DNA of 64,000 bases. Origin: Pyrobaculum neutrophilum V24Sta (lineage in GTDB: Archaea > Thermoproteota > Thermoprotei > Thermoproteales > Thermoproteaceae). Positions 6,793 through 57,524 of the stretch are shown in pieces. A program made the position numbers and the translations under genes. The stretch lies in contig NC_010525.1 in NCBI RefSeq assembly GCF_000019805.1, positions 62,001 through 126,000 of the forward strand. The letters are read 5' to 3'. Below the pieces are notes generated by a model, which saw only the letters and a list, made by a program, of their open reading frames with translations, searched no databases and had not been told where the DNA came from. Numbering within the stretch: position 1 is the first letter of the stretch; every line of letters starts with the position of its first letter.

Positions 6793-7860
6793 GTGGAGGT
6801 GTTTACGGTAGAGGTGCCGGAGGGCTATTCGGCGCTGGTGAGAGGCCCGGCTAAAGTCCGTTGCCGGGGGGCGTGCAGGGTCTTCGGCGGCTTCTTCCAA
6901 GGCTTCGAGGTGCCGCCCCACAAGCAGTACCCCGTAGAGGGCCCCGCCGTATTTGAGCTAGAGAGCGGCCTTCTTGCGTTGGCGAGAGGGTCAGCCATCC
7001 CGCGGGACTGGGATATGGAGCTGGAGGGGGTGGTGGCGCTTGTGGGCCCCCCGGACTCCGGGAAGAGCAGCCTCTCCACCTACCTGCTGAATACACACGT
7101 GGCGAGGGGGAGGAGCGTATGCGTCGTCGACGCCGACGTTGGACAATCCGACATAGGGCCGCCGGGCTTCGTGGCCTACAGCTACACGGCCGCCCCCGCC
7201 CCCCACATCTCCGAGCTGGAGCCCCACGACGCCTACTACGTCGGCTCCACAAACCTCCAGGGACTAGAGGAGCTGTTGGTCGCCGGAGTCGTATGGGCGG
7301 TGAAGAGGTGCCAAGCCCACTACCCCCATCTAACGGTGGTGAACACCCCCGGGTGGACGACGGGCAGAGGGATCCAGCTCCTACGCGCCGTCGTAGACGC
7401 GGTAGCCCCCGCCGTTGTAAACATAGGAGAGGCTCTGCTCCCGGGACGCCGCGTCTCGAAGCCAGCCCAGGTGCTCCCCAGGGGGCCTCAGGAGAGGAAG
7501 GAGCTGAGGAACCTCTCCTACAGGAGACACGTAAAAATCGTCGACAGGGTTGAGATAAGCCACGACATGCTCACCCTCTGCACGTGGGAGAGGGGGCTCA
7601 ACTGTCCCTGGGGGAGATACCTCCCGGCCGACGTGGCTGAGCCACAGAAGAGAGGCCGCGAATACGCCGTCCCTCCACACCACCTGAGACACCTCTTCGC
7701 CGGGCTCTACAGAGGAGGCCGCCTCGCCGGCTACGCCATAGTCGAAAAATTCGAGCCAAGGCCCACAGCCTACGTCACCGCAACGGACTTCGACGAGGTA
7801 CGCATAGGGAAAATACGCCTGGACCCCCACGCCCTAGAGGAGCTGGAGCCACTGCCCTAG
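6793..7860 (+). CDS. Clp1/Grc3-type polynucleotide 5'-kinase
   Basis: The 355-residue protein has a Walker A motif GPPDSGKSS (residues 85-92) followed by the VVDADVGQSDIGPPG motif typical of Clp1, Grc3 and Nol9 kinases, and VVNTPGW further on. These enzymes use ATP to phosphorylate the 5'-hydroxyl end of RNA or DNA. A beta-rich N-terminal part and a C-terminal extension flank the kinase core as in the family. The gene ends at the base next to the 3' end of a tRNA gene on the other strand, an intron-containing tRNA; Clp1 acts on tRNA exons in eukaryotes, but that link here may be chance. Confidence 0.88.
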   Translation: MEVFTVEVPEGYSALVRGPAKVRCRGACRVFGGFFQGFEVPPHKQYPVEGPAVFELESGLLALARGSAIPRDWDMELEGVVALVGPPDSGKSSLSTYLLNTHVARGRSVCVVDADVGQSDIGPPGFVAYSYTAAPAPHISELEPHDAYYVGSTNLQGLEELLVAGVVWAVKRCQAHYPHLTVVNTPGWTTGRGIQLLRAVVDAVAPAVVNIGEALLPGRRVSKPAQVLPRGPQERKELRNLSYRRHVKIVDRVEISHDMLTLCTWERGLNCPWGRYLPADVAEPQKRGREYAVPPHHLRHLFAGLYRGGRLAGYAIVEKFEPRPTAYVTATDFDEVRIGKIRLDPHALEELEPLP

Positions 7861-7955
7861 CGGGCCCGGTGGGATTTGAACCCACGACCTACGGCTCCGC
7901 AGGCTCGGCGGACCAGAGGTCCTCCGCCGCTCCATCCAGGCTGAGCTACGGGCCC
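7861..7955 (-). tRNA. tRNA-Arg(GCG) with a 20-nt intron in the anticodon stem
   Basis: The minus strand folds as a cloverleaf with acceptor GGGCCCG/CGGGCCC, D stem GCTC/GAGC, T arm GTGGG-TTCAAAT-CCCAC and discriminator G. A normal anticodon arm appears only when 20 bases (7904-7923) are removed: GCGGC-CTGCGGA-GCCGT, anticodon GCG. The intron therefore sits between positions 30 and 31 (29/30 is equally possible because of a shared G). It contains the mini-hairpin GGACC-TCT-GGTCC. The mature RNA is 75 nt and CCA is not encoded. A TATA box, TTCTTATAGCC, lies about 20-28 bases upstream. Confidence 0.9.
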
Positions 7956-8200: not shown

Positions 8201-8336
8201 TGGTGCCCCGGCCGGGATTTGAACCCGGGTCACGGGCTCGAAAGGCCCACATCCTTGTCCGGGGTGGAGGCCACCCGACCGGGCTAGACTACCGGGTGGG
8301 GTAGCCGGCTGGCTACGGCCCCCGTCTAGCCGGGGC
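8201..8336 (-). tRNA. tRNA-Glu(TTC) with two introns, one in the acceptor stem
   Basis: The anticodon arm TGGGC-CTTTCGA-GCCCG, T arm CCGGG-TTCAAAT-CCCGG and 3' acceptor CCGGGGC-A are plain. The matching 5' acceptor GCCCCGG is found only 38 bases upstream of the D arm, at 8330-8336. Removing 38 nt (about 8292-8329; the exact point is blurred by a CCCGG repeat at both ends) and 20 nt from the D loop (8257-8276, hairpin GGGTGG-CCT-CCACCC) gives a perfect 75-nt tRNA. CCA follows the discriminator and may be encoded (8201-8203). A TATA box GTATAAAT at 8358-8364 is correctly spaced for a 5' end at 8336 and not for one at 8298. Confidence 0.9.
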
Positions 8337-45524: not shown

Positions 45525-46127
45525 GTGGAGAAGCCTCTGCGGTTTATTAGGATGGCCAGCGGGGTGCATGTGGTCGCCGTGATGACGCACCCCTTTCCCT
45601 GCCCGGGGAGGTGTAGCTTTTGCCCCTCTGCGGCTGGGGTCCCCAAGTCGTATATGCCGGATAGTCCGGTGGTTTTGAGGGCTGGGCGTAGCGGTTTTGA
45701 CCCCTACCGGCAGGTGGCGGGGCGGGTGAAGGTGTATCTCGACAACGGCCACATGCCCTCTAAGGTGGAGGTGGTGGTCATGGGCGGGACCTTCTCTGCT
45801 CTGCCTAGGCGGTACAGGGAGTGGTTCATCGGCAACGTGTTTAAGGCTCTCAACGACTACCCCAGCTGGGCGGCTGGGGCCGACCCCTCGCCTGACCTCG
45901 AGCTTGAGCAGCGGCGTAACGAGGGGGCGCGGATCCGGCTGGTGGCTTTGACTGTGGAGACGCGCCCCGACTACGTCGACGTGGAGGAGGTGGACTTCCT
46001 CCTTAGGCTTGGGGTGACGCGGGTGGAGCTGGGGGTTCAGTCCATCTACGACGACGTGTTGGCCCGGGTCGATAGAGGACACGGCGTCGCCGAGGTGGTG
46101 AGAGCCACGGCTCTTCTGAAGGACTCG
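45525..46127 (+). pseudogene. elp3: elp3, N-terminal half (radical SAM part), interrupted
   Basis: The first 201 codons are typical archaeal Elp3: MASGVHVVAVMTHPFPCPGRCSFCP with the Cx3Cx2C iron-sulfur motif, VVVMGGTFSALPRRY, then VELGVQSIYDDVL and GHGVAEVVRATALLKDS. Elp3 makes the cm5U34 wobble modification of tRNA. The next conserved residues, GYKVCYHLMPG, are found only at 48757, after 2.6 kb of TnpB-bearing DNA. The frame runs on into the insert for another 46 codons to 46268. A TATA box (gttttttaatgg) lies before the GTG. It could still yield a truncated protein. Confidence 0.88.
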
Positions 46128-46840
46128 GCGTATCGCGAGAGGGCCTCCTCCAACCGCTTTATGTCGGCGCTTATCCTCTCCAGCTTCTGGCTCAACCTCC
46201 GCACCTCCCTGGGGAGCTTCCGCGTCTCCACGGCCCTCCCGCCGGCCACGAGGCCGACCTTTACATAGTGGCCGACGTTGTTCACGACCACAAGCGCTCT
46301 GGGGTCCACCCGCTGGACTTCGCGGACGAGCACGAGCCCTAGAGACCTCCGTAGGTCGGCCCCTCTCCGTCCCTCTCCACGCCGAGGGACGCGAACTTGA
46401 GCTCGCCCCTCTCCAGCTGTCTCTTTATCCACCTCGCCCTGCTTCTCTTTAACAATCGTGAAGGGCGACAAGCCCGGCCAACGTATCTCCACGGTTCCGC
46501 CCTCTAGATCAACGACGACTGGGCCTTTCTCCCCCACGCCGAGCGGAAGCGCTTTGAAAGACGGCGCGTAGCGCAGAAACAGCCCGCAGCCGGCGAGACC
46601 GCCGAGCCCGCACTTGGCGAGAACCTCCTCGGCCATCTTGAGAGCCGGCTCCCGCCTGTCCAGCGTGAGGAGCCTGCCCAACTCCGGCGCGAGCCCGACC
46701 CTCCCCTTCCCCATTGACTCCTTCGACAGCTTCCTTGCGAATTCCTCCGCCGCAAGGCGCATACGCGCCGCGAGGTCGAGGACGTCCGGCCGCTCCTCAA
46801 CGAGACGCCATGGTATCTCCAACTTCAGCGTTCTGTAGAC
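46128..46840 (-). pseudogene. Degenerate, truncated tnpB copy
   Basis: The minus strand encodes a relative of the intact TnpB: YRTLKLEIPWRLVEERPDVLDL matches YRTLRVEIPWRLVEKRPDVLDL. It lacks a start codon at the matching place. It has two frameshifts: a stretch near 46330-46445 matches the intact protein (RWIKRQLERGE, SLGVE, PTYGGL) only in another frame. The first RuvC Asp is replaced (VVVNNVGHYVKVG against VVVDVNRLDHGVVVG). The homology stops at the elp3 junction, so the C-terminal half with the zinc finger is gone. Confidence 0.8.
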
Positions 46841-47033
46841 TTGGCCCGTGGATGCATGTAGTGTGGGGGAGAATAGGTGTTGAGACCCCGTCGTGGGCGG
46901 GAAGGGCATCGGTCTTGGGGAAAGCTACCGTTGGGATGTAGAAGCCGTGATCAGCATCCGCCAGGCTACGTTGGCGGTGTATGCCACATCTTCACACCTC
47001 CCTCTCCACATGCACAAAAAGCCAGGAACATTC

Positions 47034-47100
47034 TTTCAACTATTTCGGCTCACCTGCTTAACAGCGGCGCCGTCAGGCAGATGAGCCGAGGGAGTTGAAA
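47034..47100. repeat. Long imperfect inverted repeat inside the insertion
   Basis: The segment pairs TTTCAACT (47034-47041) with AGTTGAAA (47093-47100), CGGCTCA (47046-47052) with TGAGCCG (47082-47088), and CTGC with GCAG, around a loop of about 20 nt. This gives a long hairpin upstream of the intact tnpB. It could be a subterminal hairpin of the element's left end, which IS200/IS605 transposases recognise, or a small RNA. No CRISPR-like repetition exists. Confidence 0.6.
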
Positions 47101-47340
47101 TTGTGAAGAGGCTGCGTTGGAGGTGTGGGCGGGTTGAAAAACGGGTTTATGGCGGTTATCGCCGTCGGTACGGCGGTTGGCATCTCGAAGGCGTGGGGCT
47201 ACGTATAACGCCGGCGAGACAAGACGGCCCCGCGGCGGAGACCGCCGGCGCCTGCTACGTACGCGGTTGTAAAACTTTTGGCCTGCCCCCGTCTATCCTC
47301 CATAACTAGTGGAGAATTCAGCCCCACCACGTATACGCAC

Positions 47341-48594
47341 ATGTACGCATACAGAACGCTGAGGGTGGAAATCCCCTGGCGGTTGGTCGAAAAGCGGCCA
47401 GACGTTCTGGATCTAGTGACGCGCATGTATCTGGCCGTGGAAGAATACGCCAGGAGACTGTTGAAGGAGATTGCGGGACAAGAGGAGCCGAAACTGACGG
47501 CGGAGGAGCTGGACAGACTCCTCACTCCCGAGAGGCGGGAGCTGGCGCGCCGGATTATCGAAGAGGTGTTTCCCAAGTATGGTCTCAAGAAGTACTTCGT
47601 AAAACAAGCTAAGATGTTCTGGCGCGACGCGGCATTTTGGCGGACAGTCCCACTTGACGCCCAGCTTAGAGTTGAAAACGAGAAAGACGTTAGCAGGTCA
47701 GTCTTCGTCGACTTAAAGAGCGGCGTCCTCAAAGTGCGGAAGTTAGGCATACCGCCTTTCGCCGTCAAGCTGAAGAAGAGCAACGTCGCCTGGATTAGGC
47801 GGAGGTTGGAGGAGGGTGCCAGACTCAAGTTGGCGTTTCTCGGCGTTGAAAAGAGAGGTGGTGAGAAGGAACCGACCTATGGAAGACTCTACGTTGCCCT
47901 TGTCTTCGCCCGCGAAGCGGCGCCTGTGGAGCCCAGGGCTATTGTCGTTGTCGACGTGAACCGACTTGACCACGGCGTCGTGGTGGGGCTCGTTGTGGAC
48001 GGCAAGGTTGTCAAGCGGAAGAGACTCCCCGACGAGGGTGCGGTAAGGGGGCTGAGGAAGCTCCACGAGGAGATAAGCCGTCTCGACGAGCGGGCCGCGA
48101 GGGAGGCGGACCCCGTCAGAAGGAGACGTCTCGAAGACAGAGCCCGCCACCTCGCATCAAAGCGGTATAGGAAGATAAGAGGCGTCGTTAAAGACGTCGT
48201 AAGCGAGATAATTAAGCTGGCGAGGGAGCATCAAGCCGCCGTCGTGGTAGACACGATAGAGGACGAGAGCTACCGGGAGCTCAAGGAGGGCAACGGGAGC
48301 GGCGAAAAGAAGCACCTCCTAGACGGGCTTGGACAGCTTAGGAGGAGGTTACAGGCGCTTACGGAATGGTACGGCCTGCCGTATTTGGAGGAACGGTTGT
48401 ATTCAACAGTGTGTCCCCGTTGTGGAGCAAAGATGGAGGAGAGAAAGCGCGTAATGCGTTGTCCCTCCTGCGGCTTCTCAGACCACAGAGACAACGTGCC
48501 GTTGCTCTGGGCAAAAAGGAGGTACTGGGAGATCCTCCAGAAACAACCCGTTTTTTCCTCCACACTGGCGACCATCACACTTTTAAGCTTGTAA
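47341..48594 (+). CDS. tnpB: TnpB family RNA-guided nuclease (IS605 OrfB)
   Basis: The 417-residue protein begins YAYRTLRVEIPWRLVEKRPDVL. Its RuvC-like parts are VVVDVNRLDHGVVVGL (first Asp), VVVDTIEDESYRELKEG (probable Glu) and DHRDNVPLLW (last Asp). A zinc finger, CPRCGAKMEE...RCPSCGF, lies in the usual place. TnpB proteins are RNA-guided endonucleases that promote retention of IS200/IS605 elements; they do not carry out transposition. The ATG at 47341 aligns with the conserved start. The C-terminal tail differs from common TnpB ends, so activity is not assured. Confidence 0.85.
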   Translation: MYAYRTLRVEIPWRLVEKRPDVLDLVTRMYLAVEEYARRLLKEIAGQEEPKLTAEELDRLLTPERRELARRIIEEVFPKYGLKKYFVKQAKMFWRDAAFWRTVPLDAQLRVENEKDVSRSVFVDLKSGVLKVRKLGIPPFAVKLKKSNVAWIRRRLEEGARLKLAFLGVEKRGGEKEPTYGRLYVALVFAREAAPVEPRAIVVVDVNRLDHGVVVGLVVDGKVVKRKRLPDEGAVRGLRKLHEEISRLDERAAREADPVRRRRLEDRARHLASKRYRKIRGVVKDVVSEIIKLAREHQAAVVVDTIEDESYRELKEGNGSGEKKHLLDGLGQLRRRLQALTEWYGLPYLEERLYSTVCPRCGAKMEERKRVMRCPSCGFSDHRDNVPLLWAKRRYWEILQKQPVFSSTLATITLLSL

Positions 48595-48599
48595 CTGTT

Positions 48600-48756
48600 T
48601 CACATTCATGAGCCACGTCCCCGGCCCTGGGGCCCGGCGACTAGGGGGACACCGCCAGTCCCTAATGACCCGGGCCCTCTCGCCCGCGGCCGCCCTCTAG
48701 GCGTCTCCGCGGGCGGGCCCCGCGCCCTCCCGGGGAGGCCGGGAGCCGCAAAGGGG
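48600..48756 (+). ncRNA. Candidate TnpB guide RNA (omega/reRNA) scaffold at element right end
   Basis: The bases after the tnpB stop are strongly foldable: AGGGGGAC/GTCCCT near 48640-48665, CGCCCGCGG/CCGCGGGCG (9 bp) near 48685-48717, and CCTCC-cgg-GGAGG near 48726-48739. In known elements the guide RNA starts in the end of tnpB and runs to the right end of the element, with the guide taken from flanking DNA. Here the flank is elp3. The call rests on position and structure only; a match to known scaffolds was not tested. Confidence 0.45.
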
Positions 48757-49563
48757 GGCTATAAGGTGTGCTACCACCTAATGCCGGGGCTCCCCGGTAG
48801 CGACCCGGACCGCGACCTGGAGATGTTTAGGGAGGTTTTTTCAAACCCGGACTTCATGCCCGACTGCGTCAAGATATATCCCACGTACGTCGTCCCCGGG
48901 ACCAGGCTGTATGAGGAGTGGAGGCGGGGCGTCTATAGGAGCTACGGCGAGGATACGTGGCTGGATCTCCTGGCGAAAATCTACGCCTCCGTGCCGAGGT
49001 GGGCCAGGGTTATGAGGCTGGGGAGGGATATACCTCTGCACCACGTCGTCGACGGCCCGAGGTGGGGGAACATGAGGCAGGTGGTGCTTAGGCGGATGGA
49101 GCGGCTGGGCCTTAGTTGCTCCGAGATAAGGTGTAGGGAGGTGGGCGTGAAGCTGGCGAATGGGGTCTACGTGGAGCCTGGGCCGGTGGAGATAAGGAGG
49201 CACATCTACGAGGCCTCCCGGGGGGTGGAGGTCTTCCTAGAGGCCGTGGGGCCGGACGACACGCTGTATGGGATACTTAGGCTGAGAATGCCGCATAGGC
49301 CGCATAGGGGGGAGCTGGCTGGGCGGACTGCCCTGGTGAGGGAGCTACACGTCTACGGCCCGGAGGTGCCTGTGGGAGAGGAGGGCCTCTGGTGGCAACA
49401 CACGGGGCTGGGGAGAGCCCTCCTGGAGGAGGCCGAGGAGACCGCCGCGCGGGAGTTTTCCGCGGCGAGGATCGCCGTGATCAGCGGCGTGGGGGCCAGG
49501 CCCTACTTCGGGAAGCTCGGCTACGGGAGGTGCGGCCCCTACATGTGTAAAGAGCTTAGGTAG
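48757..49563 (+). pseudogene. elp3: elp3, C-terminal half (GNAT part), separated
   Basis: The frame resumes with GYKVCYHLMPGLPGSDPDRDLEMF, the segment that follows the N-terminal half in intact Elp3, and ends with the acetyltransferase domain (GRALLEEAEETAAREF, then VGARPYFGKLGYGRCGPYMCKEL). A GTG at 48766 has a G-run (48753-48758) seven bases upstream that could act as a ribosome binding site. Separate translation as a split protein is therefore conceivable. The radical SAM barrel would need the two parts to assemble; otherwise the gene is dead. Confidence 0.85.
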
Positions 49564-49604: not shown

Positions 49605-50723
49605 ATGTCGATGGATTTGTCTACTGCGAGGTCGCGGGGCCTTGAGTTGGCCGGCAAACTGCCCTGGCAGGAGGTGGCGGATTCGCCCACCATTAGGTAC
49701 TACACCGACTGGTCCAGGTTCGAGGGGTTTAAGCCGTCTGCCGGGACGAGGCCGCGGCCCGCCTCCCCGGCCCCCTGCGAGGTTGTGGTGTCGGGGGGCT
49801 ACCTCGCGGGGCGGGGGCCCTGCGGCGGGGTGGAGGTGGATGCGGCTGGCGAGGTCTTTAGGAGGCTTGACATCGGCAGTAGGATCCTGGCGCTTCACGC
49901 CTCTGCCCTTTCCGAGGCCGTGCGGGTGAGGGTGGCGGGGAGGGTGGAGCCGTTGGTGGTTAAGCTCGTGGCGGATTCCCCGGGGAGCCACGTGGCGAGC
50001 CACGTCATCCTGGAGGTGGAGGAGTCGGCGTCTGGGTCGGTGGTGGTCTACGTCGAGGGCAACGTGGGGACCATGCACACGGCCGTGGTGGAGGGGGAGG
50101 TCAGGGGGGCCGTCGAGTACGTCCTCGTGTCGAGGGGGGGCGGGCCTCAGTACGTCCACTCGGCGCTTGCGGTGGGGTCGCAGGTCTACGCGAGGCCTCT
50201 GGTGCTCGGGGGCGTCATGAACGCCGTGAGGGAGGAGTACGTGGTGGCGGCTGGGGCCTCGGCCGAGGTTGTAGGTATGGAGCTGGGCTACGGCGAGAGC
50301 AGGATAGACCACGTGGTTTCCGTCGTAAACGACGCGCCGAAGGGGAGGGGCTTCGCCAGGCTCTACGCCGTTGCGGCAGACAGATCGTTCGTGGCGCAGC
50401 GCGCCGTTGGGAGGATCACGCCTAGGGGGGCCGGAAGCGAGAGCGCGGTGGAGGGGGTGGTGTATATAGCTGGGGAGGGCGCCGTGGCCAACTCCCAGCC
50501 GGTTATCCTGGTGGAGACCGGCGACGTGGAGGGGGCTAGGCACTCCGCCGCAGACGCCGCGTTGGACGAGGAGAAGGAGTTCTTCCTCAGATCGCGCGGG
50601 GTGAGGAGGGAGCACATCCCGAGGCTCATCATGGCGAGCTTGGTCGACCAGTACCTGTCTTCTCTGTCTGAGGGGGCGAGGGGCTTCGCGGAGGCCGTCG
50701 TGAGGTCGGCCGGGCTCCTCTAG
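49605..50723 (+). CDS. SufB/SufD-like Fe-S assembly protein
   Basis: The 372-residue protein has the beta-helix core of SufB/SufD: repeated short strands such as VASHVILEVEESASGSVVVYVEGN, and the C-terminal family end ESAVEGVVYIAGEGAVANSQP, EGARHSAADAALDEEKEFFLRSRGV and AEAVV. SufBCD builds Fe-S clusters. Neither sufC nor a second beta-helix partner lies next to it. A TATA box (cgtttattaatcc) precedes the ATG by about 25 bases. Its stop shares a CTAG with the convergent tiaS gene. Confidence 0.85.
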   Translation: MSMDLSTARSRGLELAGKLPWQEVADSPTIRYYTDWSRFEGFKPSAGTRPRPASPAPCEVVVSGGYLAGRGPCGGVEVDAAGEVFRRLDIGSRILALHASALSEAVRVRVAGRVEPLVVKLVADSPGSHVASHVILEVEESASGSVVVYVEGNVGTMHTAVVEGEVRGAVEYVLVSRGGGPQYVHSALAVGSQVYARPLVLGGVMNAVREEYVVAAGASAEVVGMELGYGESRIDHVVSVVNDAPKGRGFARLYAVAADRSFVAQRAVGRITPRGAGSESAVEGVVYIAGEGAVANSQPVILVETGDVEGARHSAADAALDEEKEFFLRSRGVRREHIPRLIMASLVDQYLSSLSEGARGFAEAVVRSAGLL

Positions 50724-52809: not shown

Positions 52810-53021
52810 GGGGGGCGCCGCATACCCCCGCTTCTGTCGGGGTATCGATCTAGCCCCCTACCCGGGCCTCGCCGCGGCCTCACAGGCCCTGCTTGGGGGC
52901 CGCAGCGCCGGCTGGTTTTTACCCCCGCCTTGCGGCGGCCCGCCGGCGCCCTCCGCGGGCGGTGCGGGAGGTTCCAGAGGGGCCCCGTCTCCGGGAGCCC
53001 CCCCGTCCCCTCGGCGCCCCC
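52810..53021 (-). ncRNA. rnpB: RNase P RNA, minimal (type T) form
   Basis: The minus strand starts and ends with a P1 helix, GGGGGCGCC (53021-53013) pairing GGCGCCCCC. Near the 3' end is TAGATCGATACCCCGACAGAA, then GCGGGGGTATG, which matches the universal RNase P regions IV and V (AGAUxxAU and ACAGAAxxxGG). CTGGAACCTCCCGC near the 5' third matches region I. The RNA is only about 212 nt, so the specificity domain is reduced, as described for Pyrobaculum and relatives. A TATA box (ggcttatattc, about 53038-53048) lies 20-27 bases upstream. Confidence 0.88.
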
Positions 53022-54946: not shown

Positions 54947-56820
54947 AGGTCAGACTCGATCACGACCCTCCGCCTCCCCTCCTTGAACCTCTTGTAGGCC
55001 TCCACCACGTCATCGGCCGTCACAGGCCTGCCGTTGAACTTCACCGCCACAGCCGCCGGCTCCAAGCCGGTGAACATCCTCGTCACCAGGGCGAGTTGCG
55101 CCATGTAGTTGTTCTCTATAAACAGGGCGCTTCTCCCCTCTAGAAACCTCCTCACGACGTCGCGGGGGTAGGGGTACAGCATTTTCACGTATAGAAACCC
55201 CACGTCTTTGAGCTCCCTCAACGCGGTGAGGACAGCCGGCTTCACGGATCCCCACCCCACCACCACATCTCTGGCATCTTCCGGGCCGAAGTAGACGGCC
55301 CTCTCCTCGGGCGGTATCTCCTCCTCGATAAGCGCCATCTTGGCCATCCTCCTTTCGTACATCTTCGCCACAGCTTCGGCGTCTTCTTCGGGATCGCCCG
55401 CGGCGTCGTGCTCCAGGCTGCTCAGGTGGAACACGGCGTTGGAGATGCCGGGCAGTAGCCGAGGCGGCACCGTCTTGTCCAGCGGGTAGGCCTCGGCCTC
55501 GCTCGGCGCCGTGTAGACGGCGGGAGGCGGCCTTTCTATCTTAACCGCGTCGGGGTTGGGCAGAGGCATCACGGCGAAGGTGTTAGACAGGTTTTTGTCG
55601 AGGAGGTGCACTACGGGCACCCTGTAGCGCTCCGCCCAGTTCGCCGCCCTAATGCTGTCTAGAAACGCCTCCTCCAGATCCCCGCTGGAGTACACGATCT
55701 TTGGATACTCCCCGTGCCCCGTGAAGAGGGCGTAGAGCAGATCCTGCTGACCCTGCCTCGTGGCTTGCCCCGTGCTAGGCCCAGCCCTCATCCACACCAC
55801 CACCACGACCCCCACCTCCATCATCCCCGCCATAGACACGGCCTCGGCCATCAAGCTGAAGCCGGGGCCCGAGGTCACAGTCGCCGCCCTAGCGCCGGCA
55901 ATGGCGCCGCCGGTTGCGACGGCGACGGCGGCGAGCTCGTCCTCTGTCTGCAACACCACGGCTCCAGCCCGCCCATCCGCCACTGGGAAGGGGATAGACC
56001 TCTCGAAGGTCATGGCGTCGTCGGTGGCGGGGGTGATGGGGTAGTAGGCCAGCAGCCTCACGCCGGCCACTATCTTCCCGTAGCTCGCGGCCTCGTTGCC
56101 GTTCCAGAAGATCCTCCTCTCCGGCGGTCTCCTCGGGGCTAACGTAGCGATGCGTCTATCCACAAGCCGCATGGCCTCCTGGGCAATCCGCTTGTTCTGC
56201 TCCACGACGTCCGGCTTCTTGCCCAAGGCGTAGCCGACGCCTCTGGCGACATATTCGGCGTCGAGGCCCAGGAGGGCCGCGCCGAGGGCTACGACGAAGG
56301 TGTTTAGAAACCTCGAGAGCAGAACAGGCGAAGTCACGCCTATCTTTCCCCCGATTTCTCTCAGCGCTTTGCCGTAAGGGACGCCCACCGTCTCCACGCC
56401 GTTTTCCCTTAGGTACTTGACGAAGCCGCCTACCGTCGGCTCGAAGCCGCGGTCTTTTGCAAATCTCGCCAGCCTCTCCGCCTGCGGCCTAGCCATCATT
56501 ATGTAGCTCCCCGGATCCCTCTCCTCCTCCTCCGTGTTGTAGACGAGGACGGCCCCCCTCTCTAGGTGGAAGACGTGTTCCAACACCGCCTGGCCGTCGA
56601 GGGCGAGGGCAAGCGCTACGCGGTTGCCGGGGGCGGGGGCGGGCCACCGGTCCGATATCGTCCCAACGACGTAGCTGTGGCGGCCCCCCGCTATGTTGCT
56701 CCAGAACTCCCTCCTGGCGTATACGTAGTAGCCCGCGGACCCCACGCCATATATGAAAATGAGGGAGGCGGTCTCGACGCCCCTCCCCTGAGGCCCCCCA
56801 ATGAGAAAACTCAGCTCCAT
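54943..56820 (-). CDS. 2-oxoacid:ferredoxin oxidoreductase, fused gamma-alpha subunit
   Basis: The 625-residue chain joins a gamma domain (SFLIGGPQGRGVETASLIF) to the pyrimidine-binding alpha domain with YYPITPATDD near residue 255 and SGPGFSLMAEAVSMAGM. This fused form is usual in crenarchaea such as Sulfolobus. Substrate range may include pyruvate and 2-oxoglutarate. An AT-rich promoter (aaaaatatatatag on the minus strand) precedes the ATG. The gap 56821-56927 is AT-rich with no other feature I trust. Confidence 0.94.
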   Translation of the reverse strand: MELSFLIGGPQGRGVETASLIFIYGVGSAGYYVYARREFWSNIAGGRHSYVVGTISDRWPAPAPGNRVALALALDGQAVLEHVFHLERGAVLVYNTEEEERDPGSYIMMARPQAERLARFAKDRGFEPTVGGFVKYLRENGVETVGVPYGKALREIGGKIGVTSPVLLSRFLNTFVVALGAALLGLDAEYVARGVGYALGKKPDVVEQNKRIAQEAMRLVDRRIATLAPRRPPERRIFWNGNEAASYGKIVAGVRLLAYYPITPATDDAMTFERSIPFPVADGRAGAVVLQTEDELAAVAVATGGAIAGARAATVTSGPGFSLMAEAVSMAGMMEVGVVVVVWMRAGPSTGQATRQGQQDLLYALFTGHGEYPKIVYSSGDLEEAFLDSIRAANWAERYRVPVVHLLDKNLSNTFAVMPLPNPDAVKIERPPPAVYTAPSEAEAYPLDKTVPPRLLPGISNAVFHLSSLEHDAAGDPEEDAEAVAKMYERRMAKMALIEEEIPPEERAVYFGPEDARDVVVGWGSVKPAVLTALRELKDVGFLYVKMLYPYPRDVVRRFLEGRSALFIENNYMAQLALVTRMFTGLEPAAVAVKFNGRPVTADDVVEAYKRFKEGRRRVVIESDL

Positions 56821-56927
56821 ATATCTCTATACCCGACATGGTCTATATATATTTTTCCTTTTACAACTATAGAAATGATGATGTGATAACTTTATGTGAT
56901 TTTAACTTCTGTATTAGATAGACCTAG

Positions 56928-57524
56928 CTAGTGGGTAAACAGGTTTGCTATTTGGTTTCTTATGCCCGTTATGATCATCTCGGTGGCGACAGACGCGATG
57001 ACAAGGGACATAAATCTGCCCAACAGCCTCAGCGGAGTCGCGCCGAGGTACCTCACGGCTCTGATGCCGAGGAGCAAGGTGGCCGCGACGGCGGTGGAGG
57101 CTGACGCGGCCACCGCCAGAGCCCAGAGGGGGCCGTAGGTCGACGATATTATGATCAAGGCGGTGATGGTGCCGGGGCCCACTATAAGGGGAGTTGCCAG
57201 GGGGACCACGGCTTGCTCCTCCGCAATCTCCACCTTTCCCACGTAGGAGCCCGACATGAGGGTCATTATCGATATCGCCATCAGCATGATGCCCCCCGCG
57301 ATCCTAAAGCTGTCGAGGCTTACGCCGAACGCGGCGAGTATGGCCCCGCCGCTTAAGGCGAAGAGGGATGTGAGTATGTAGACGGCGAATACGACCACGG
57401 TGGTGACCTTTTTCACGAACTGGGGGCGTTCAGACGCCAGCGGCCCGACGATGGCGAGTTTGCCTATTGGGTTCATTATTGCGTAAAGTTGCCCCACAAG
57501 CGCAAAAAACTCGGTGATTGACAT
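56928..57524 (-). CDS. MarC family membrane protein
   Basis: The 198-residue protein has six hydrophobic helices and the MarC/SNATE pattern: LYAIMNPIGKLAIVGPL in helix one, RIAGGIMLMAISIMTL and VPLATPLIVGPGTITALI (PLAxPLxxGPGTI). MarC proteins are of unknown function; a Thermococcus relative was linked to neutral amino acid transport. It begins 54 bases downstream of the FBP aldolase/phosphatase gene on the same strand. Confidence 0.9.
   Translation of the reverse strand: MSITEFFALVGQLYAIMNPIGKLAIVGPLASERPQFVKKVTTVVVFAVYILTSLFALSGGAILAAFGVSLDSFRIAGGIMLMAISIMTLMSGSYVGKVEIAEEQAVVPLATPLIVGPGTITALIIISSTYGPLWALAVAASASTAVAATLLLGIRAVRYLGATPLRLLGRFMSLVIASVATEMIITGIRNQIANLFTH

Follow-up and report, generated by a model that had tools for sequence, protein, structure and literature searches.

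In IS200/IS605 elements and in tnpB-only elements of the IS1341 type, tnpB is followed by a structured RNA end and many copies lack tnpA. Retroposons of the LINE and SINE type have a constant 3′ end and are truncated to varying extents at the 5′ end; their target duplications are short and many copies are RNA-only. Neither IS200/IS605 nor IS607 elements make a target duplication, according to the parts of PMC4227781 and PMC6188088, respectively, that treat the subject. Here we describe a TnpB-bearing element that interrupts the elp3 gene of Pyrobaculum neutrophilum V24Sta, within a stretch of 64,000 nucleotides of contig NC_010525.1 (positions 62,001 to 126,000; hereafter the window). The family to which it belongs shares the tnpB-then-RNA layout and the many copies without tnpA with the IS200/IS605 and IS1341-type elements, but differs from IS200/IS605 in that no Y1 transposase was found in any of 19 family genomes (this one, G000, and 18 others), in that 12 of 71 other copies are flanked by target duplications of 7-12 bp, six of them checked against empty sites, and in that its left ends are not conserved. 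Like IS607 it can carry tnpB, and the elp3 site has GG nearby, but the target duplications, and the absence of a recombinase gene from the elp3 insert, set it apart. The four retroposon features named above all recur in the family, which differs from LINE/SINE-type retroposons in having no PF00078 reverse transcriptase in the 19 genomes and in duplication lengths that cluster at 9-10 bp.

We consider it likely that this element inserted at codon 203 of the organism's only elp3 fairly recently and thereby disabled Elp3. The genome is a single complete contig of 1,769,823 bases, in which the joined Elp3 protein finds two adjoining matches only (residues 1-204 and 201-469), that is, one interrupted elp3. 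A second full elp3, which the first-pass annotation of this DNA had named as evidence that would overturn a disruption, was sought genome-wide with the joined protein and not found, the other matches being radical-SAM proteins at only 29% identity. The split reported in that annotation is real, although its boundaries move from 46127 and 48757 to 46133, where identity with the relatives ends on the left (..GACTCGGCGTAT), and 48760, where it restarts on the right (TATAAGGTG). Against the uninterrupted elp3 of G004, the nearest relative, and of seven other genomes, TAT stands at both junctions (Table 1) and the net insertion is 2,629 bp. Its excision gives exactly the frame of the uninterrupted relatives, 469 codons and a stop, so that the restored frame proposed at first is borne out by codon alignment. 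The joined protein is 93% identical over residues 1-469 to G004 Elp3 and reads ..KDSAYKVCYH.. at the junction, as the relatives do, not KDS followed by GYKV as had been written. The empty site in G004 is ..GACTCGGCGTATAAGGTG.., and the seven other genomes are likewise uninterrupted there. Repeats are common places for misjoins, and an assembly artefact could in principle produce such a structure, but we find this scarcely credible in a single complete contig where the left junction is no repeat end and both junctions fall at one place of one gene.

The joined frame shares with archaeal Elp3 the radical SAM domain in its 5′ part and the C-terminal radical SAM and GNAT acetyltransferase domains in its 3′ part, and differs from it by the interruption at codon 203. 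For Elp3 of Methanocaldococcus infernus, cm5U34 activity has been reported (as cited in a passage of PMC6313347). We infer that the P. neutrophilum protein is inactive, since the insertion breaks the radical SAM barrel and the sole start of the 3′ half is a GTG beside the G-run of the element; the insertion thus probably cost the organism its Elp3. Among the 18 other family genomes, elp3 is in one piece in 13 and was not found in five: G006 (99% complete), G007 (93%), G018 (91%), G017 (80%) and G008 (74%). The gene can therefore be absent in this family, and G006, at 99% completeness, indicates that the genus can do without it; the three genomes above 90% completeness that show none suggest that parts of the family lost it or never had it.

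The insertion lies in a gene of mosaic history. Most of the compared part of the window is about 70% identical to G004, whereas identity is about 95% in much of a block of some 20 kb (~28.8-49.07 kb) and again at ~59-62.5 kb; such blocks in such a background indicate large-scale exchange between two Pyrobaculum lineages. The right edge of the larger block falls within elp3, about 310 bp to the right of the insert, with the first ~305 codons inside, and elp3 is for this reason a recombinant gene; the neighbouring tiaS is 75% identical to G004 in protein. An exchange with an uninterrupted donor after the insertion would have removed the insert; the element would thus have entered codon 203 after, or together with, the exchange of part of elp3 with a close relative of the G004 lineage.

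Changes placed on the two branches give a further view of this history. In codons 1-203 there are 2 missense and 10 silent changes on the P. neutrophilum branch and 1 and 7 on that of G004, in a region where 73% of random changes are expected to be missense and 3% stops, which argues that elp3 stayed constrained during most of the period that followed the exchange. Codons 204-469 have 15 missense and 21 silent changes on this branch versus 7 and 40 on the G004 branch (Fisher p 0.011), and in codons 401-469, a region chosen afterwards, 10 and 5 versus 1 and 10 (p 0.005); all these counts exclude the changes to which no branch could be assigned, namely 0 missense and 6 silent ones in codons 1-203 and 4 and 10 in codons 204-469. 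Because the far 3′ part is of older divergence and changes there cannot be assigned to a branch with certainty, the missense excess in the C-terminal half is no more than a hint that constraint was relaxed.

Three readings had been offered for this locus, namely recent disruption, a functioning split protein and a variable state in the population. Recent disruption fits best, because the insert lies in a ~95% block, G004 has the empty site and the halves are free of stops and frameshifts in the codon alignment; the split protein is possible but unsupported. Two observations nonetheless weigh against recent disruption: the intact halves and the few missense changes in codons 1-203 also fit a working split gene, and the duplication at elp3 is at most 3 bp (TAT), whereas other duplicating copies have 7-12 bp. 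In a split protein, a 5′ part running to 46268 with a 44-residue tail and a 3′ part starting at GTG 48766 would together form one barrel. Both halves are indeed open, and the split point appears to separate a helix of the barrel from a strand, by reading of the sequence and not by computation. The GTG with an upstream G-run pointed out in the first-pass annotation also exists, but the G-run (48753-48758) belongs to the conserved terminus of the element (AAGGGGGGC), which many other insertions also carry, and is thus no adaptation or evolved ribosome-binding site. The counts in the C-terminal half, in a test weakened by the older divergence of the far 3′ part, also lean the other way, and we hold two cooperating polypeptides to be rather improbable.

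The TnpB gene first noticed in the insert is intact (tnpB A) and has a TnpB-like C-terminal domain (PF07282, E 1.4e-8); the initial view of the split had been without the second, truncated tnpB, the structured right end, the many-copy family and the recombination within elp3. In a structure database, tnpB A matches a designed RNA-guided nuclease (E 4e-6) and, weakly, TnpB 8bf8/8h1j (E 0.023). Eighteen of 19 translated tnpB copies are open over at least 412 codons, L063 being the exception. All 18 aligned copies keep the D of VDVNRLD and the D of RD at the first and third acidic positions of the RuvC triad (D, E, D), whereas the residue aligned with the second, usually E, is the D of VVVDT(M/I)ED or a close variant, with a further acidic residue shortly after. 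Close TnpB relatives (at least 65% over most of the length) are restricted to G000, G004 and G015 among 45 genomes of the order, and elsewhere in the order matches over most of the length reach at most 46%. The divergent remnant, tnpB B, is covered by a minus-strand open reading frame at 46046-46909.

To the right of tnpB A the element ends in a GC-rich segment over which 16 copies align for about 165 bases. Fourteen of its 27 predicted pairs are changed on both sides in this alignment, and 94.5% of cells are paired, a value that none of 500 shuffles reached and that falls to 45.6-59.9% when the pairing is shifted by one to three columns. The folding energy of the window copy alone is not unusual (z -1.54), so it is covariation that supports the structure. 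Such a structure is what one would expect of an omegaRNA scaffold that stops at the right boundary, although both the name and the role are putative, being given by analogy with TnpB systems already described.

A model of this right end, built from copies in the family genomes and applied to at most 150 candidates per genome, matches 11 times in G000, 76 times in G004 and 18 times in G015, and not at all in the other 16 genomes. Twenty-six of the 76 G004 copies have the 3′ end of a tnpB within 120 bp upstream and 50 do not, as judged by the 42 listed G004 tnpB matches. Many of the copies in this 1.83-Mb genome (loci L154-L193 among them) are solitary and guide-RNA-like, each adjoining a different flank. 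The RNA-end pattern gave no match in viral contigs and one in genome contigs, a collection from which near relatives were possibly left out; this match is bacterial and taken as chance. In the open literature on TnpB elements, Pyrobaculum and Thermoproteus we recognised no description of this element family; the T. tenax genome paper lists five transposase open reading frames or fragments in the part that concerns them (PMC3189178). In G004 a divergent tnpB pair also stands between syntenic flanks at 1067628-1071191, with none at the matching window site (56811-56955).

Duplications read against empty sites measure 7-8 bp at L050, 9 bp at L062, L063 and L176, 10 bp at L065, and 9 bp with two differences at L059. 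L062 is counted on its empty site alone, its score in the null comparison being ordinary (15/31), while the repeat of L176 was also seen in the test made without an empty site. Six further duplications come from that test: L056, L072, L165 and L169 (10 bp each), L081 (9 bp) and L184 (12 bp). These repeats lie at or within one base of the end and are matched by 0 or 1 null comparisons, L072 being the weakest (2/31). Several candidates were set aside: a 9-bp repeat at L068 (0/31), which lies inside tnpB; an 8-bp repeat at position 77 of L075 (2/31); and repeats at L071 (9 bp, 5/31) and L074 (11 bp with one mismatch, 19/31). The empty sites of L070, L073, L055, L057 and L058 are too diverged for a duplication to be read, and L073 resembles a small loss. 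For the 59 copies with no visible duplication, age, divergence or the absence of any duplication at insertion may be responsible. The L176 copy, a 228-bp RNA end, sits on the stop codon of the G004 homologue of the window gene at 49605-50723 with its 9-bp duplication TGTTTTAGC, and the window near 50710 is its empty site.

The two ends of the copies behave differently. Where the empty site is readable, AAGGGG(G/A)(G)C marks the right end, and the right-hand repeat begins two bases past it in L065 and six bases past it in L062. The left ends show nothing visibly shared, and element lengths run from 90 bp to 2.6 kb. The shortest, at positions 1018-1127 of locus L056 in G000, is a 90-bp insertion consisting of only the 3′ part of the RNA end, with a perfect 10-bp duplication on both sides. 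Divergent tnpB pairs in which one partner is cut short at the left end occur repeatedly in G004, and in three of them, L062, L065 and L072, the left end supported by the duplication lies inside the truncated partner, as in elp3; truncation thus appears to occur at insertion. In L072 the pair is reversed, with its full tnpB where the window element has the truncated one. We rejected TTTATGTC as a left-end motif: it is near the left end in three copies but is coding sequence of tnpB B, and is absent from the other left ends. By eye, no convincing target or target-adjacent motif was seen left of the insertions, and no match of at least 10 bases was found between 13 insertion sites and 72 guides of other copies.

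The elp3 element probably arrived as a unit, with its fixed right end at the omegaRNA 3′ end and its left end truncated inside the divergent tnpB, and it duplicated at most the 3 bp TAT. It is also possible, if unlikely, that the left end reflects a later rearrangement, in which a duplication of 9-10 bp was made first and a deletion at TAT then removed the rest of the left duplication together with the end of tnpB B. The 7-12 bp duplications of other copies speak for such a sequence of events, and the TAT of tnpB B at the junction would permit a microhomology deletion; on the other hand, L062, L065 and L072 are truncated inside the partner tnpB with an intact duplication, so truncation at insertion is enough. 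A rearrangement of this kind would be compatible with the favoured insertion at codon 203.

What moves the element can be approached through the enzymes at hand. The search that found no Y1 transposase in the 19 family genomes matched in 5 of 14 control genomes, and that for PF00078, the one reverse transcriptase family among the polymerases that was searched for, matched in 3 of 14. No recombinase gene was found among the open reading frames and domain matches of the insert. A serine recombinase is matched in 17 of the 19 genomes, mostly once, including 14 of the 16 without this RNA family, and so does not track the element. Among the Y1 transposases and serine recombinases covered by these searches, the family genomes thus show none that goes with the element, as would be expected of a transposase for TnpB elements. 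The plain alternative to what follows is that an ordinary transposase, for instance a DDE enzyme, works on one end in trans.

It is tempting to speculate that, in these Thermoproteaceae, TnpB-only elements need no TnpA to spread and follow a retroposon-like route, the elp3 insertion being one instance, a proposal that we make tentatively and would not ourselves expect to hold. On this route, one end of each copy would coincide with the 3′ limit of the omegaRNA scaffold and random truncation would set the other, leaving as little as a 90-bp piece of the RNA end; the copies would enter staggered breaks, which would give the 7-12 bp duplications. In one version the staggered cut would be the work of TnpB, and what is captured there would be the omegaRNA end or a DNA copy of it. 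ISDra2 TnpB makes a staggered cut 15-21 bp from its motif with 5′ overhangs, as the pertinent part of PMC8612924 has it. Because of this cut, and because IS200/IS605 and IS607 leave no duplications, we keep open a break made by TnpB itself, an unlikely but far from negligible possibility.

The guide, too, may bear on the fate of the insertion. The elp3 sequence downstream of the right end would serve as guide, so that TnpB could cleave elp3 alleles that lack the insert and thereby maintain the insertion in the population, an effect described for other TnpB elements. Such a guide would match the empty allele of the same species, and removal of the insert restores the frame exactly; perhaps, then, the element leaves precisely from TAT to TAT in some cells and is re-installed when TnpB cuts the empty site, much as TnpB gene drive has been described in plasmids (PMC11870625, in the portion on that topic). 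But with no Y1 transposase in the family genomes, a left end that is a truncated gene fragment, and 3-bp repeats that are short for recombination, we judge this variable state quite improbable.

The exact frame also raises the question of removal from RNA. IStrons, which combine a group I intron with parts of IS605 or IS607, share with this locus a TnpB element in a protein gene whose frame is restored on removal (the joining of TnpB elements and introns is treated in part of PMC4227781), but differ from it in that no intron family was found in the insert, and indeed no Rfam intron family passes its gathering threshold anywhere in the window. The other candidate is a bulge-helix-bulge intron. 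In such introns two 3-nt bulges at the junctions flank a central helix of 4 bp, and here that helix forms 1, 1, 1 and 2 of its 4 pairs in the four splice registers. We therefore regard splicing of either kind as very improbable, and insertion with loss of Elp3 as the likely reading.

The features of the locus are collected in Table 1. Elsewhere in the window, positions 8204-8265 (minus strand) give an Rfam tRNA match of 32.9 bits that ARAGORN does not report, near a tRNA-Arg at 7860-7955 that spans 96 bases, and positions 52812-53020 (minus strand) hold a truncated RNase P RNA of type T (RF02357, 202 bits).

Table 1. Features of the interrupted elp3 locus, in window coordinates.
Feature	Position	Strand	Description and basis
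elp3 5′ part	45525..46133	+	Codons 1-203, GTG start, radical SAM domain; PF04055, codon alignment
Left TAT copy	46131..46133		Comparison with uninterrupted elp3 of G004 and seven genomes
Inserted element	46134..48759		2,626 bp between the TAT copies
tnpB B	46134..46837	-	Divergent remnant cut off at left junction, 40% identical to tnpB A; tblastn
Region between divergent tnpB genes	46838..47340		Imperfect palindrome at ~47033-47100; recurs between divergent tnpB pairs in G004
tnpB A	47341..48594	+	417 codons, intact; PF07282, RuvC-like acidic positions, alignment of 18 copies
OmegaRNA-like right end	48595..48759	+	Fixed terminus AAAGGGGGGC; alignment of 16 copies, model matches
Putative omegaRNA guide	48760..48780	+	elp3 sequence adjoining right end; length assumed, role by analogy with known TnpB
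Right TAT copy	48760..48762		Comparison as for the left copy
elp3 3′ part	48763..49563	+	Codons 204-469 and stop, possible GTG start at 48766; PF16199, PF13673, codon alignment

The disruption of elp3 is in itself modest news; of greater interest is that a TnpB-only family leaves a retroposon-like insertion signature. Up to 76 RNA-end copies in one 1.8-Mb genome, 50 of them without tnpB, bear marks not described for IS605 or IS607, and the family makes the movement of TnpB-only elements directly testable. If elp3 is dead, P. neutrophilum would offer a natural experiment on how a hyperthermophile lives without the wobble modification that depends on Elp3; should the halves work, it would hold a naturally split radical SAM enzyme.

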